DNA of 5,030 bases, from the NCBI GenBank assembly GCA_003131945.1, contig PKWD01000239.1, positions 152 through 5,181 of the forward strand. The letters are read 5' to 3'. The notes beneath the pieces are model-generated. The model did not search any database, had not been told where the DNA came from, and was given only the letters and a program-made list of their open reading frames with translations. This stretch comes from Acidimicrobiaceae bacterium (lineage in GTDB: Bacteria; Actinomycetota; Acidimicrobiia; Acidimicrobiales; UBA8190). The position numbers were made by a program, and so were the translations under genes. The stretch's first letter is position 1. Each line of letters opens with the position of its first letter. Of the stretch, positions 244 through 5,030 are shown piece by piece.

Positions 244-1659
244 GTGCGGCACCATGGGAGCGTGCCCCGCCAGCGTCGGCCAGATGCGCCCACGGTCGTC
301 CACAGGACAGCGCGCATCGCCTTGCGAACCACCGCCGGACAACGCCAGCGTTGCTTCGGTCTCCTGCGCTCGGGGGGAGACGTCTGGGCCTGCGTCCTCG
401 AACTGAGCGCCGTGCGTCGTCATCGAGGGGCGGCACCCCTGGCCGGCTATCAGGAGCTGTGCCGGGTTCTGGCGGCCGATGGACCAGGGATCTTCGGTGA
501 GCTGTCGACGACCGGGGCGCGGTCCATTCTGCGGCGCTACTCCGATGCGTGGATGACCACGGCCCAGAGACGCAGAGCCGGTGACAAGTCGGCCCGCTAT
601 CCGAGGCGCAAGAAGGCCCTCATGCCCTCGCGCTACTACGCTGGCACCTTCGACCTCGACGGACGTCGCCTCCGGCTCCCCACTGCTCGGGGGGTGCCAC
701 TACTGGTGGTCCGACTCACCCGGGATGCTCCGTACCCGGCATCGTCGATCCGCTCGGTGACGCTTCTGGCCGACGGTTCCCGGCTGTGTGTGGACGTGAC
801 GGCCGAGATCGAGGTCGAGACCTACCAACCGGGGGAGGGTCCCGACCCGGACCGTGTCGCCGGGGTGGACCTGGGCATCATCCACCTTTTCGCCGTGGCC
901 ACCGAGGACGGGGCCCTGCTCGTCTCAGGACGCGCCGCCCGGGCCGAATCCCGCCTGCACCTGGCCGAAGCGAAGGCCCGGCACCGCGCCGTGGCCCGCC
1001 GGGCGCCGACCAAAGGCCAGCGCGGCTCTCGTCGGTGGCGGAAGTACCGGGCCCGGACTCAGGTCTTGGAAGGCCGGCACCGACGCCGTCTGGCCCAGGC
1101 CCGTCACGAGGCAGCCACCACCGTCGTCGACGTGGCCCGCCAGAAGCGCATCGGCACCCTGGTGGTGGGCGACCCCCGGGGGGTGCTCGATCGAGACGCC
1201 GGCGCCCGGCAGAACCTGGCCACTCGCAATTGGCGGGTGGGACAACTCATGGCGGTGCTCACCGACAAGGCGCAAGCGGCCGGGATCGAGGTCCTGCTCG
1301 TCGACGAAAGAGGCACCTCGTCGACCTGCCCGCGCTGTGGGGCCAAGGTGCCCAAGCCCAAGGGCAGGAACTTCTCCTGCCCCCACTGCGGTCTTCACGC
1401 CCACCGCGACATCGTGGGTGCCATCAACATCGCCTCCCGATCACCTGGGGGCGGGACCACGGTCGACCCCGAAGGGTTGGCCATCACGCACCGTCGAGCC
1501 GGCCGGCATCTGCCCGGTCGGACCCGGCGTGACCCGAGACGGGTGGCCTTGGAGAAAAAAGGCGCCCTCAGAGGTCTCTGGCCGGCTGTGGCCCGCCTCG
1601 AGGACGTCGACAATGACGATCCCGGGGAGTCGCTCGCAAGGGATGCTTCGGCTGCCTGA
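244..1659 (+). CDS. tnpB: TnpB / OrfB family RNA-guided endonuclease-like protein with variant RuvC-II motif
   Basis: The protein has 471 residues. TnpB proteins are RNA-guided nucleases of IS200/IS605 and IS607 elements, ancestral to Cas12, that cut DNA next to an element-specific motif and favour retention of the element. In order: a WED-like beta segment at about 22-55 (RTARIAL, CFGLLRSGGDVWACVLE), a helical segment at 65-130, RuvC-I with Asp209 (AGVDLG), an Arg/Lys-rich bridge-like helical stretch at 235-300, RuvC-II at 303-313 (IGTLVVGDPRG), the TSSTCPRCG segment, a zinc ribbon with Cys362/365 and Cys379/382, and RuvC-III with Asp389 (HRDIVGAINI). The RuvC-II position that is normally Glu appears to be Gly309 followed by Asp310. 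About 75 residues follow RuvC-III; they are Arg- and Gly-rich and may be translated guide-RNA sequence. The start is GTG 244; GTG 262 is an alternative, and neither has a convincing Shine-Dalgarno site. A stop at 223-225 excludes anything further upstream. Confidence 0.9.
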   Translation: MRHHGSVPRQRRPDAPTVVHRTARIALRTTAGQRQRCFGLLRSGGDVWACVLELSAVRRHRGAAPLAGYQELCRVLAADGPGIFGELSTTGARSILRRYSDAWMTTAQRRRAGDKSARYPRRKKALMPSRYYAGTFDLDGRRLRLPTARGVPLLVVRLTRDAPYPASSIRSVTLLADGSRLCVDVTAEIEVETYQPGEGPDPDRVAGVDLGIIHLFAVATEDGALLVSGRAARAESRLHLAEAKARHRAVARRAPTKGQRGSRRWRKYRARTQVLEGRHRRRLAQARHEAATTVVDVARQKRIGTLVVGDPRGVLDRDAGARQNLATRNWRVGQLMAVLTDKAQAAGIEVLLVDERGTSSTCPRCGAKVPKPKGRNFSCPHCGLHAHRDIVGAINIASRSPGGGTTVDPEGLAITHRRAGRHLPGRTRRDPRRVALEKKGALRGLWPAVARLEDVDNDDPGESLARDASAA

Positions 1660-1706: not shown

Positions 1707-1721
1707 GCAGCACTAAGTGCT
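1673..1721. repeat. Two adjacent inverted repeats between convergent tnpB and NRDE genes
   Basis: AACCAC at 1673-1678 pairs with GTGGTT at 1701-1706, enclosing a loop that itself contains the palindrome CAAACGTTTG (1692-1701). Directly after it, AGCACT-A-AGTGCT at 1709-1721 is a perfect 13-base palindrome that includes the TAG stop codon of the minus-strand NRDE gene (1713-1715). These may be the right-end structure of the tnpB element, a bidirectional transcription stop for the two convergent genes, or both. There is no T-run on either strand, so a classical Rho-independent terminator is not supported. Confidence 0.4.
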
Positions 1722-2486
1722 CCAGAGCCCTCCGGCGTCGACGAAGGGCGCCGTGCAGGGATGGCCGTCGGCGTACGAGACCTCGGGCCTGGCCTCTGTC
1801 CGGAGAGGCACGAGAATGAGGGTGGAAGAGCGCGTGCCGTAGGTGTCGGTGTGGACACAGGCGGCCAAGGTCTCGGGCCGTCGGCCCGGCGGGGACGCCG
1901 GCCCGAGGACCGCCGTCTCGTGATCGGCCAGAAGGACCCGGAGCCCTCCGGTCAGCTCGTCGGCGGTGAGACCGGCGGTGTCGCCGAGGAGAGAGCGGAC
2001 ATGGTCGGCCTTCCATGACGGGGCATGGAGGGGATTGTTCTCGAGGACATAGAGGCCGGGACCTAAAGGTTCGACGAGGGGCCGGGGTCCGTCGCTCATG
2101 TCGATGAAGAAGAGGGACTCCCGGTCGCCGACGAGGAACCAGGCCGGGTTGTAGTCGGCCGGGCTGACTCTCTCGACGAAGTCGCTGACGGCGTCGGCCG
2201 CCCGTGTGTGGGAGGCGAGGGCCAGGGGTAGCTCGCCCCGGGTCCGCTTGGCCGGGTCGCGGCCGTCGGGGAGAGGGCGGTTGGTGAGGCCGGCCACGAG
2301 GCCGTGCTCGTTCAGGGCCAGCCAGGTGCCGCCGGCCTCCTCGTCGCGGCCGCCGAGGATCCGGGGGTGGGCGTGACGCAGGACGGTCATGGCCGTGGCC
2401 CGACGATCGAGGCGTTCGTCGCGGTTGGCCGCCACCACCAGAGGGGCCTCTTCGTGGAGACCAAAGGCCATGACCAGGAGGCACAC
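1713..2486 (-). CDS. NRDE / TANGO2 family protein
   Basis: The gene encodes 257 residues from a GTG at 2484-2486. The N-terminus reads M-C-L-L-V-M-A-F, then VVAANRDERLDRRA with the signature Asn-Arg-Asp-Glu at 21-24, then GGRDEEAGGTWLALN and GLVAGLTNR (45-70). These are the hallmarks of the NRDE family (TANGO2 in eukaryotes, linked there to heme handling). The family has an Ntn-hydrolase-like arrangement with a conserved Cys at position 2, which is why I prefer this GTG. The frame stays open upstream to a TTG at 2606, but that would add about 40 Pro/Lys/Thr-rich residues and bury the Cys. The length is typical of the family. The C-terminus (GHPCTAPFV) is complete, so the tnpB element beside it did not cut it. 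No Shine-Dalgarno sequence precedes the GTG; a leaderless start is plausible. The bacterial substrate is unknown, and no neighbour suggests one. Confidence 0.88.
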   Translation of the reverse strand: MCLLVMAFGLHEEAPLVVAANRDERLDRRATAMTVLRHAHPRILGGRDEEAGGTWLALNEHGLVAGLTNRPLPDGRDPAKRTRGELPLALASHTRAADAVSDFVERVSPADYNPAWFLVGDRESLFFIDMSDGPRPLVEPLGPGLYVLENNPLHAPSWKADHVRSLLGDTAGLTADELTGGLRVLLADHETAVLGPASPPGRRPETLAACVHTDTYGTRSSTLILVPLRTEARPEVSYADGHPCTAPFVDAGGLWST

Positions 2487-2855
2487 GGCCGGAAGGGTAC
2501 CGGTCTGCTCGCCGTCTGCTTCCGGCTGCTTCGTCGACGGTTTCGTCGGTGGTTTCGCCACGGTTTGGTCGATGGCCTGAGGACTGCTTCGACGACGGAC
2601 CGACAATCGGCACCCTTAGGCACAAATTCTCACTCTCAGTAGCTCAAGCAGCGACCACTGCGAGCCGATGTGCGGGAATACCAAAAGCAGACGTTCGGAA
2701 AAGGGGGGGTCCATCCGAGGTGAGAGATCGGTCGCCATGCCAGACCGTGCTCGGTGAACCCGATTCCGGACGTTTCATCCATGGTGCATCAACCGGATGG
2801 AGAGGACCGTTTCGCCCCGGCGTAACGAACCCGCACCGGGCTTTCGTGCAACACG
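2487..2855. other. Divergent intergenic region between the NRDE gene and the SGNH-like gene
   Basis: No convincing gene is seen on either strand in these 369 bases; the open frames that cross it have low-complexity or unfamiliar translations and belong to overlapping shadows. It should carry the promoters of both divergent genes, but apart from the weak TACCCT near the NRDE start I find no clear -35/-10 pair. Visible structure: three to four degenerate 12-base units at 2526-2573 (core GGTTTCGTCG), a run of seven G at about 2704-2710, and a small CCCG-CAC-CGGG hairpin at 2830-2840, 15 bases before the next gene. Confidence 0.5.
2494..2499 (-). promoter_or_regulatory. Possible -10 element (TACCCT) for a leaderless NRDE transcript
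   Basis: On the minus strand TACCCT fits the TAnnnT -10 pattern and lies seven bases before the preferred GTG start (2486), the spacing expected if transcription starts at or one base before the start codon. This would explain the absence of a ribosome binding site. No good -35 hexamer is seen at the usual distance, so the evidence is weak and rests on position. Confidence 0.28.
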
Positions 2856-4925
2856 ATGTGGGGGGTTCGAGTGAGCATCCGGCCTGAACAACCTGAGCCG
2901 TTCCTGCGCGGGTGCGTCTTCCCCGCCGTCACGAATGCGCCCTATCCGAGAGCGGACCCGGCCGGGGCCGAATACCTGCCGGCCGATGTCTGGGACGCGG
3001 CCCAACTGCCGGTCGGGGTCAGGCTCGAGCTGACCGGGAACGCCCGGACGATCCGGGTCTGGTACAGGACGACGAGGGCCAGCCTCGGCTACCGGGGGGA
3101 GTCGGCCGGCTGCAGCTTCGTGGCCTACCGGGCCGGCCAGAAGGTGGCCACGGTGGAGGCGGTCATGGGGGAGGGGATGGCCGAGCTGGTCATGTCGGGC
3201 CGGACCGACCTCCCGGTCACGGTCTACCTCCCCGAGGGCATGGTGCCGCTCGTCACCGGGGTGGCCGGGGTGGAGGAGCCGATGAACCCGGCGCCGCTCC
3301 AGCCGCGGTGGCTCGCCTACGGGGACGCGGTCACCCAGGGATGGCTGGCCTCGGCGCCTGCTATGGCCTGGCCGGCGGTGGCCGGTCGGAAGCTCGGGCT
3401 CGACGTCTGCAACTTCGGCTACGCCGGGACGGCCCGGGGGGAGACGATCTCGGCGCTCCTACTGGCCGAGACGCCGGCCGAGGCCGTCTCGATCGCCTTC
3501 GGGCTGAGCAATTGGAGCCGGGTCCCCCACACGACAGGGCTCATGGCCGAAGAGGTCCGCTGTTTTCTGTCGGTCGTCCGTCAGGGTCACCCGGATGTTC
3601 CGATCGTCGTGGTGAGCCCGACGGCACGGCCCGACGCCGAGGACACCCCGAACCGGGTCGGGGCCACTCTCGCCGAGCTCCGGCTGGCCATGGAAAAGAC
3701 GGTCCTCGACACGATCGCCGACGGCGACGAGAGGCTCTTTCTGGTCGAGGGTCTGGCGGTCGTCGACCCCGAGGATCTCGAGGACGGCATGTACCCGGGC
3801 GACGAGGGCCACCGGCGCCTCGCCGCGGCCGTGGCCAAGGTCCTCGTGCCCCACTTGGCTGATCTCCAGACAGCGGCCGATAAGCGTTGGGCCAACGAAG
3901 GGACTCCGGCCACGCCGGTCGCCTCCTTCACAGTGTCTCCGCCGGCCTCGGCCCGGGCCCCGACACCACAGGCCCCCACTAGACCGGCCCGCACGACACC
4001 GGCCCCCGCGGCGCAGGACTCGGCGCTGAACCTCGACATCGATGACTTCGGCTCTCTCGACAGCGGCTCGCCGAACGATGGGTTCGACGCGCTGTCGCCG
4101 GAGACGGGGTCGCGACCGGACATGGCGGCCCTGGAAGACGCCCTCCTGCACCATGCGCCGCTGAACGGGGCCGCCATTGCCACCCCGCCGACCTCCGCCG
4201 ATGTCGAGGACCCGCCGGACGAGATGTTCCCGGTCGACACAGGACCCGTGGACACAGCGCCGGTCGACACTGCGCCGCTAACTGACACTGTGCCGGTCGA
4301 CACCGCGCCGCTGACTGACACCGCGCCGCTGATTGACACGGCGCCGGTGGATGACACTGCGCCGCTGATTGACGCAGCGCCGGTGGAGCTGGCTTCGCCG
4401 GCCAACCCCCAAGGCGGTCATTCACTCAATGACACGTCGACGAATGGCACGGCACCATCGAACGCTGAAGCAGAAACGGTCCCGCCGACCGATGTCAAGC
4501 CGCCTGTCCGCCGTGACATGACCCCAGTCGACATAGAGATCGCCGACATGGTCGTCGCCGCGCTGACCTTGGCCACCAACGGCGCCGATGACGTCATGTA
4601 CGAGCGGGACATCTTCACCACCAATGAACTGCAGTGGCCGGAAGGGGGGGAACCGGTTCCCCACTACGAGCTGAAGTGGGAGGAAGGCACCGGACCGGCG
4701 GCCAGCTACGAGCTGGACTGGGCCGAGGTAGCGCACCCGGCCCCGACCGAGGAATCGCCGTGGTCCGACCCGGTAGCCACCGACGGCATCGAGTGGGCGG
4801 ACGCCGGTGCGACCGAGGAATTGCAATGGTCAGACCCGGTCCCGACCGATGACATCGACTGGACCGTCCCCGGGGCGACCGAGGAACTGCAATGGGCCGA
4901 GCCGGCCGAACCGGGCGCTTACTGA
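2856..4925 (+). CDS. SGNH/GDSL hydrolase-like protein with degraded catalytic residues and long repetitive acidic C-terminal tail
   Basis: The protein has 689 residues. Residues 15-130 form a beta-rich accessory domain (VRLELTGNARTIRVWY) of the kind preceding this SGNH subgroup; 150-335 is the SGNH fold. Block I reads WLAYGDAVTQGW (152-163), with Ala158 where the nucleophile Ser is expected; block II is NFGYAG (186-191); block III is FGLSNW (215-220), where the Gly-x-Asn pattern seems shifted; block V is DGMYPGDEGH (310-319), with Asp310 kept but Tyr313 at the catalytic His position. Functional SGNH enzymes cleave ester or acyl groups; this one is probably inactive and may bind a ligand. After residue 345 come a Pro/Ala/Thr linker, a Pro-Val-Asp-Thr repeat tract (459-510), a short helix-like stretch (558-574) and eight Trp motifs (591-680). 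No signal peptide or membrane segment is seen, so a cytoplasmic location is likely. ATG 2856 lacks an RBS; GTG 2871, five bases after six G (2860-2865), is an equally good start. Confidence 0.85.
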   Translation: MWGVRVSIRPEQPEPFLRGCVFPAVTNAPYPRADPAGAEYLPADVWDAAQLPVGVRLELTGNARTIRVWYRTTRASLGYRGESAGCSFVAYRAGQKVATVEAVMGEGMAELVMSGRTDLPVTVYLPEGMVPLVTGVAGVEEPMNPAPLQPRWLAYGDAVTQGWLASAPAMAWPAVAGRKLGLDVCNFGYAGTARGETISALLLAETPAEAVSIAFGLSNWSRVPHTTGLMAEEVRCFLSVVRQGHPDVPIVVVSPTARPDAEDTPNRVGATLAELRLAMEKTVLDTIADGDERLFLVEGLAVVDPEDLEDGMYPGDEGHRRLAAAVAKVLVPHLADLQTAADKRWANEGTPATPVASFTVSPPASARAPTPQAPTRPARTTPAPAAQDSALNLDIDDFGSLDSGSPNDGFDALSPETGSRPDMAALEDALLHHAPLNGAAIATPPTSADVEDPPDEMFPVDTGPVDTAPVDTAPLTDTVPVDTAPLTDTAPLIDTAPVDDTAPLIDAAPVELASPANPQGGHSLNDTSTNGTAPSNAEAETVPPTDVKPPVRRDMTPVDIEIADMVVAALTLATNGADDVMYERDIFTTNELQWPEGGEPVPHYELKWEEGTGPAASYELDWAEVAHPAPTEESPWSDPVATDGIEWADAGATEELQWSDPVPTDDIDWTVPGATEELQWAEPAEPGAY
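4230..4385 (+). repeat. Tandem Pro-Val/Leu-Asp-Thr repeat tract within the SGNH-like gene
   Basis: Residues 459-510 are about ten units of five or six residues, PVDTA or PL(T/I)DTA with small variations. At the DNA level the 15- and 18-base units keep a CCGGTCGACACnGCG or CCGCTGAnTGACACnGCG theme, with varied third positions. Such tracts are usually extended, disordered, acidic spacers. The mixture of two unit types suggests expansion by slippage or unequal recombination followed by drift, so length is expected to vary between strains. Confidence 0.85.
4626..4895 (+). repeat. Eight-unit acidic tryptophan repeat at the C-terminus of the SGNH-like protein
   Basis: Trp residues at 594, 608, 622, 636, 647, 658, 669 and 680 end motifs ELQW, ELKW, ELDW, SPW, IEW, LQW, IDW and LQW. 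The spacing is exactly 14 residues three times, then exactly 11 four times. The last four units form a higher-order pair of 22 residues (DNA 4764-4829 and 4830-4895, about 80% identical by eye). The units are rich in Asp/Glu, Pro and Ala and end nine residues before the C-terminus. This resembles an array of short linear binding motifs on a disordered tail; I do not recognise a named domain. Confidence 0.88.
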
Positions 4926-4950: not shown

Positions 4951-4965
4951 CTGACAGGCCGTCAG
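4951..4965. promoter_or_regulatory. Palindromic operator-like site CTGAC-AGGCC-GTCAG over the -35 box
   Basis: CTGAC (4951-4955) and GTCAG (4961-4965) are perfect reverse complements around five bases. The site covers the -35 hexamer and the start of the spacer. Size, symmetry and position resemble operators of TetR-type repressors, which would block RNA polymerase here. No regulator gene is in the window, so the binding protein is unknown. Confidence 0.45.
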
Positions 4966-4986
4966 ATCCCTGGCTATGCTCGCCGC
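4951..4986 (+). promoter_or_regulatory. Promoter for leaderless transcript of the downstream amidohydrolase
   Basis: CTGACA (4951-4956) matches the TTGACA -35 consensus at five of six positions. An 18-base spacer leads to TATGCT (4975-4980), which fits TAnnnT. The last T lies six bases before the ATG at 4987, so the expected first transcribed base is the A of the start codon. No Shine-Dalgarno sequence lies before that ATG, in line with leaderless translation, which is common in actinobacteria. Confidence 0.6.
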
Positions 4987-5030
4987 ATGGCCGAACTGCC
5001 CATGATCGTCTCGGTCGACGACCACGTCGT
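4987..5030 (+). CDS. Amidohydrolase family protein, N-terminal 14 residues (3' end outside window)
   Basis: The ATG at 4987 opens MAELPMIVSVDDHVV, which runs off the window. The MIVSVDDHVV opening is typical of the actinobacterial amidohydrolase_2 group, where the first beta strand ends in an Asp-x-His or Asp-Asp-His metal-site motif. The start is fixed by a -10 element six bases upstream that would make a leaderless message. It is 61 bases after the SGNH-like gene and has its own promoter, so it need not be co-transcribed with it. With so few residues, the family call is tentative. Confidence 0.6.
   Translation, partial: MAELPMIVSVDDHV

Follow-up and report, generated by a model that had tools for sequence, protein, structure and literature searches.

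The question raised by this locus is what becomes of an SGNH-fold protein that has lost its catalytic serine and histidine. The locus lies in a 5,030-nucleotide stretch of DNA from an Acidimicrobiaceae bacterium (assembly GCA_003131945.1, contig PKWD01000239.1, positions 152 to 5,181 of the forward strand), hereafter the window, which encodes a 684-residue protein with Ala at the nucleophile position and Tyr at the position of the catalytic His. The catalytic motifs are gone and the gene and fold are conserved, as in a pseudoenzyme. We give a probability of roughly 0.8 to the reading that the protein is a maintained pseudo-esterase acting as a binding or adaptor module. The loss of hydrolysis is well supported by the residues described below; a new role in binding, as an adaptor or as a sensor, is what we infer from them.

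The reading frame probably opens with the GTG at 2871, since 24 of 32 aligned rows begin at the residue encoded there or no more than two residues later, the remaining 8 being longer; the alternative, an ATG at 2856, 15 bases upstream, would add five residues. The numbering 153 and 308 is therefore probably better than the Ala158 and Tyr313 of the first-pass annotation. That annotation covered 3309–3809, a span that does hold blocks I–V, but the protein itself continues to the stop at 4925. The SGNH domain matched the Pfam family Lipase_GDSL_3 (PF14606) with 58.1 bits, above the gathering cut-off of 27, and an AlphaFold model built from 108 sequences gave a confident fold (predicted local distance difference test score, pLDDT, 93.6) over the full length of the domain, in agreement with the full-length scaffold proposed from the letters. 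An earlier model from 32 sequences was weak near block I (mean pLDDT 71). The nearest solved folds are SsfX3 (PDB 3skv) and BACOVA_00914 (PDB 4lhs), and the two-domain protein, an SGNH fold with a flanking N-terminal domain, was matched structurally over its full length by 3skv, 4lhs and 2wao.

In phmmer alignments, the Ala of the window falls on the nucleophile Ser of 3skv (YGDS) and 4lhs (YGSS), and its Tyr on the His of 4lhs (DGTHPND); the alignment with 3skv ends short of block V. The two codons read as first reported, each one base away from a Ser or His codon. The block I Ser of active SGNH enzymes is absent from the window and from all 54 rows of its clade (see below), and the block V His is found in only 3 of those 54. 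Of the oxyanion residues, the block II Gly is retained, and the block III Asn, found in 36 of the 54 rows, is Ser213 in the window. The missing Asn had been pointed out before, but the close relatives of the window do not share this change, with Asn in 24 of 24 rows (P0003–P0026); Asn has also been lost in other lineages of the family. The suggestion that His319, now His314, could serve as a substitute base found no support, as this residue is equally conserved in intact relatives (29/30) and in the clade (54/54).

The known relatives differ from the window protein at these same sites. SsfX3, a salicylyl-acyltransferase, has the nucleophile motif GDS where the window has GDA; the window protein also has a tail of 349 residues. 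BACOVA_00914, a putative GDSL-like lipase according to its title, has both the block I Ser and the block V DGTHPND. The CE2 carbohydrate esterases (PDB 2wao, 2wab, 2w9x) use a Ser–His dyad that is missing from the window (Ala153/Tyr308); CtCE2, unlike the window protein, retains the dyad and its esterase activity. A Ser hydrolase devoid of both Ser and His should form no acyl-enzyme. In the Streptomyces rimosus lipase, activity was abolished by Ser-to-Ala and likewise by His-to-Ala substitution, as given in an excerpt of PMC10779480.

We considered the possibility that the changes were an isolated sequencing error. Among the window translation and the best 120 of 139 homologue matches (121 rows, two of which are the window itself: its own translation, P0001, and a 100% identical database copy, P0002), the nucleophile column held Ala in 82 rows, Trp in 18, Ser in 18, and Gly, His and Gln in one each. 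The closest homologues do not, then, all carry GDS and DGLH, and an error is ruled out because the Ala/Tyr state is common to the whole clade. A larger set of 171 rows was made up of the window, 119 of these 121 proteins and, out of 72 loci, 51 from named genomes; L046 and L053–L072 were left out as partial or distant. The nucleophile, Asp and base letters in this set were ADY in 77 rows, SDH in 46, WDH in 19, ADH in 17, SDY in 9, and GDY, HDY and QDH in one each. No second (active) paralogue of the family was found in the same genome at E 1e-5 in six of six genomes. The source names given to these proteins, mostly lysophospholipase L1-like esterase or SGNH/GDSL hydrolase, are probably incorrect for the greater part of the clade.

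Removal of rows with <250 filled columns and of same-state near-copies at 90% identity left 126 rows, from which a tree was computed with columns 153 and 308 removed. The window fell within a 54-row clade without Ser (Shimodaira–Hasegawa-like approximate likelihood ratio test, 99), the sister of which is a mixed clade of 42 rows (98); the other 30 rows form the outgroup. The 54-row clade has Ala in 52 rows and His and Gly in one each at the nucleophile position, and Tyr in 51 and His in 3 at the base position, or 49 ADY, 3 ADH, 1 HDY and 1 GDY in combination; a clade sharing Ala/Tyr, the check suggested by the first-pass annotation, thus exists. Ser (19), Trp (16), Ala (6) and Gln (1) occupy the nucleophile position in the mixed clade, which has His in 35 rows and Tyr in 7, and at position 213 Asn in 7 and Ser in 30. 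The catalytic Asp305 and the second His of block V, His314, are invariant across both derived clades. All 30 outgroup rows have Ser153, Asn213, Asp305 and His308. Records of the lineage without Ser carry the names Acidimicrobiaceae, Acidimicrobiales or Actinomycetes, and the outgroup includes Streptomyces, Catenulispora and Trujillonella, plus assembled genomes named Acidimicrobiia or Acidimicrobiales; intact members therefore exist in that class, too.

In a more careful tree of 80 rows, thinned from the 126 and with column 213 removed as well, the clade without Ser (29 rows) and the two derived clades jointly (56 rows) were each supported at 100/99. Because the sister clade is mixed at the nucleophile, this tree requires at least 7 changes between Ser and non-Ser (bootstrap range 7–8; starred branches force 5), along with 5 between His and Tyr and 6 between Asn and other residues. 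Such minimum counts alone do not separate loss from regain, but loss is favored since all outgroup rows are intact. The full Ser-Asn-Asp-His set is kept in five mixed-clade rows (L008, L009, L012, L020 and P0097).

Two further groups were apparent. One, making up 16 of the 126 rows (P0059, P0065, P0073, P0084, L014 and others), combines Trp for Ser with an intact His, placing a bulky residue at the would-be oxyanion pocket. The other (P0090, P0093, P0100, P0104, P0105, P0107 and P0109) keeps Ser and has Tyr for His, and a basic motif resembling YRRSAR is found close to the C-terminus in six of its seven rows.

The SGNH domain is under purifying selection, with a ratio of nonsynonymous to synonymous substitution rates (dN/dS) of ≈0.17 between the window and its 85% relative in L001. 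The tail evolves fast (dN/dS ≈ 0.54 vs L001, dS 1.08). When the 54-row clade is compared with the outgroup, only columns 40, 153, 156 and 308 are fixed for different residues (≥90% in both groups); the strictest changes thus center on the active site, and the domain is otherwise kept.

Tails of 20–502 residues past position 335 are present in all 96 derived-clade rows, with 43–502 residues (median 196.5) in the 54-row clade and 20–271 (median 81) in the 42-row clade. In the outgroup, the median is 0, with <10 residues in 25 of 30 rows and ≥40 in one; L028 of Catenulispora is an example of a tailless intact protein. The tails appear to be of low complexity and are probably disordered, judging from their composition. 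A motif with the pattern PVDIxIADMVVAALTLATNGADDV matched 17 of 25 close rows. A length-limited search with residues 535–684 for the tail motif in other proteins returned 14 matches, all of them SGNH homologues already listed. An AASS-type C-terminal tip was dropped as a mark of the mixed clade, since the expression matched only 18 of its 42 rows. The features of the window are listed in Table 1.

Table 1. Features of the pseudo-SGNH locus, in window coordinates.
Feature	Position	Strand	Basis
Pseudo-SGNH protein, 684 residues, GTG start	2871..4925	+	Reading frame; start compared with relatives
N-terminal, mostly beta domain, about residues 1–142	2871..3296	+	AlphaFold model; matches to 3skv, 4lhs, 2wao
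SGNH domain, residues 143–335	3297..3875	+	Pfam, AlphaFold model, structure matches
Block I, GDAVTQGW, with Ala153 (codon GCG, 3327–3329) for the nucleophile	3321..3344	+	
Block II, NFGYAG; Gly183 and Gly186 retained	3411..3428	+	
Block III, GLSNW, with Ser213 for the oxyanion Asn	3501..3515	+	
Block V, DGMYPGDEGH, with Tyr308 (codon TAC, 3792–3794) for the catalytic His; Asp305 and His314 retained	3783..3812	+	
C-terminal low-complexity tail, residues 336–684	3876..4922	+	Sequence, dN/dS
Tandem repeats of 15/18/33/36/51 bp, DTAPLxDTAPV-type units	4230..4382	+	
Short tail motif, PVDIEIADMVVAALTLATNGADDV	4524..4595	+	Pattern in 17/25 rows tested (window, P0003–P0026)
Tandem repeats of 33/66 bp, acidic Trp motifs EELQW and DDIDW	4744..4895	+	
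Palindrome CTGAC-N5-GTCAG ahead of amidohydrolase; –10-like TATGCT at 4975–4980, start codon at 4987	4951..4965	.	
Downstream amidohydrolase, first codons (MAELPMIVSVDDHV), cut at window end	4987..5030	+	Same start in L001

Neighboring genes were checked by tblastn with 11 reference proteins, the gene calls coming from a crude caller. Intact outgroup loci often have the order luciferase-like monooxygenase (LLM), short-chain dehydrogenase/reductase (SDR), SGNH, IclR (e.g., L021, L024, L027–L030, L036–L038 and L052); in the five Streptomyces loci, LLM and SDR were present and no IclR match at ≥40% was found in this search. In part of the derived clades, the order is SGNH, (SDR), amidohydrolase, acyl-CoA dehydrogenases. 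The amidohydrolase, a PF04909 protein in L001, is 81–86% identical to that of L001 in 8 of 11 mixed-clade loci, preceded by SDR in 7 of these 8 and followed by acyl-CoA dehydrogenases in all 8. In the group without Ser, 4 of 11 loci (L001–L004) have the amidohydrolase and acyl-CoA dehydrogenases, with the amidohydrolases of L002–L004 82–83% identical to that of L001. Less similar amidohydrolases (54–74%) lie 3.5–6 kb away in the outgroup loci L019, L036 and L040. One gene family sits directly upstream of the SGNH gene without Ser in L002, L010, L011 and L015, and the matches of its member in L011 to DnaJ models stay below the cut-offs. The window also encodes an IS605-type TnpB (244–1659, forward strand; PF01385 and PF07282 matches), for which we noticed no TnpA in the window, and a TANGO2-family protein (1713–2606, reverse strand; PF05742) that is 64% identical to its counterpart beside the L001 SGNH gene.

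The palindrome precedes the amidohydrolase in all 13 derived-clade loci that hold this gene (the window, L001–L004, L008, L013, L017, L018, L020, L025, L035 and L051). It is also present in L012, whose sequence ends shortly past the start, and as a variant copy in L019; it was not found before the amidohydrolases of L036 and L040, and the 1.3 kb preceding the SGNH match held no copy in the 54 sequences. We counted 40 copies in 796,270 bases vs 1 in one mononucleotide shuffle. The palindrome lies at what is apparently a leaderless promoter of the amidohydrolase. Several of these loci contain additional copies at other places, suggestive of a regulon that, as a guess, could be under a TetR-like repressor.

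How could such a protein have arisen? The ancestor would have been an SsfX3-like two-domain SGNH esterase or acyltransferase, often encoded beside an LLM and an SDR. A set of SDR, LLM and esterase recalls cascades of oxidation, Baeyer–Villiger reaction and hydrolysis, and the ancestral ligand may therefore have been an ester or lactone. One actinobacterial lineage would then have lost the catalytic machinery and retained the fold and most pocket-frame residues. Ester hydrolysis would have ended, and the former pocket may bind a small molecule or a protein without turnover, as the retained frame residues and the constancy of Ala and Tyr themselves suggest. The protein might then serve as an adaptor or sensor, tethered to a partner by the repeated or terminal motifs of its tail.

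Several observations weigh against a pseudo-esterase of this kind. The amidohydrolase is missing from the neighborhood in 7 of 11 loci without Ser (L005–L007, L010, L011, L015 and L016), of which L006, L007 and L011 have 10 kb of downstream sequence and the other four lie on contigs ending within 5 kb; the role is thus not strictly tied to the amidohydrolase cluster. An operon of the SGNH gene with the amidohydrolase is weakened, and co-transcription doubtful, because the latter has its own promoter-like site. Tails of ≥10 residues also occur in 5 of 30 outgroup rows, the makeup of the tails differs between subclades, and the tail motif pattern was not found in 8 of the 25 close rows.

A gene drifting toward decay since its function was lost might show what we see in the related lineages, namely repeated changes of Ser, His and Asn, and a match within the order came from just 28 of 397 genomes. 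However, dN/dS is low, there are no internal stops, Ala and Tyr are conserved across the clade, and the frame residues are invariant. Decay is disfavored and hardly credible; the clade-wide Ala/Tyr, the selection on the domain and the confident full-length fold point to a maintained pseudoenzyme, the reading that the first-pass annotation had favored. It is also improbable, if less so, that the reworked site (Ala153, Thr155, Gln156, Asp305, Tyr308 and His314) has taken up another reaction, in which either Tyr308 or His314 would act as the acid or base or the nucleophile would have migrated; the only candidates seen for such a nucleophile are Thr155 and the clade-specific Cys81. Such an enzyme would explain the retention of Tyr308 (51/54), Asp305 and His314, and would suit the catabolic genes that surround the locus in several genomes; migrated residues have been described in other pseudoenzymes (PMC10211241, in excerpt). 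At position 156, all 30 outgroup rows have Glu and all 96 derived rows, the window included, have Gln; Thr155 is found in 94 of 96 vs 1 of 30. Within the clade, Cys occupies residue 81 (codon 3111–3113) in 52 of 54 rows, a position at which 41 of 42 sister-clade rows have Ile or Val and none of the 30 outgroup rows has Cys. But Thr155 accompanies Ser in all 19 Ser-bearing mixed-clade rows and so did not arise as a Ser substitute, Cys81 sits in the N-terminal domain of the predicted model, His314 is shared with intact relatives, and the nucleophile position of the sister clade is occupied by Trp, Ala, Gln or Ser.

Compatible with a maintained pseudo-esterase, and only somewhat short of an even chance, is an order of events in which the ancestor of the 96 rows was already a binding protein and the catalytic residues were lost repeatedly thereafter. 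Gln156, Thr155 and the tail are its proposed ancestral marks, and Gln156 and the tail characterize all 96 rows, including those that bear Ser and His; the number of Ser/non-Ser changes is in keeping with it. On the other hand, the five rows with a full catalytic set may be active, judging from their residues, and minimum counts do not separate loss from regain. A more specific version, which we regard as tentative and on balance doubtful, has a probably disordered tail with subclade-specific docking motifs, such as the EELQW repeats in the group of the window, appearing first and the catalytic residues discarded repeatedly (nucleophile to Ala, Trp or Gln, base to Tyr); the product would be a multivalent scaffold or a ligand sensor that serves a set of catabolic enzymes.

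There are precedents for parts of this picture. In an excerpt of PMC2661963, CtCE2 provides one, in a related fold, for binding without turnover. In Arabidopsis, 3 of 116 GDSL sequences lack catalytic residues and are kept in the genome, according to a partial text of PMC4757993; GDSL pseudoenzymes as a kind are therefore not new. The plant proteins resemble the present ones in the loss of catalytic residues, but here a bacterial clade has undergone repeated changes and carries long tails. In the open-licence PMC literature, our searches found no account of a bacterial SGNH clade of this kind. What stands out is the repeated change within one bacterial family together with the gain of a tail. 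Intact relatives, tailed members with Ser and His, variants with Trp, Ala or Gln as nucleophile and members with Ser and Tyr form a natural series, in which the steps from enzyme to pseudoenzyme are directly testable.
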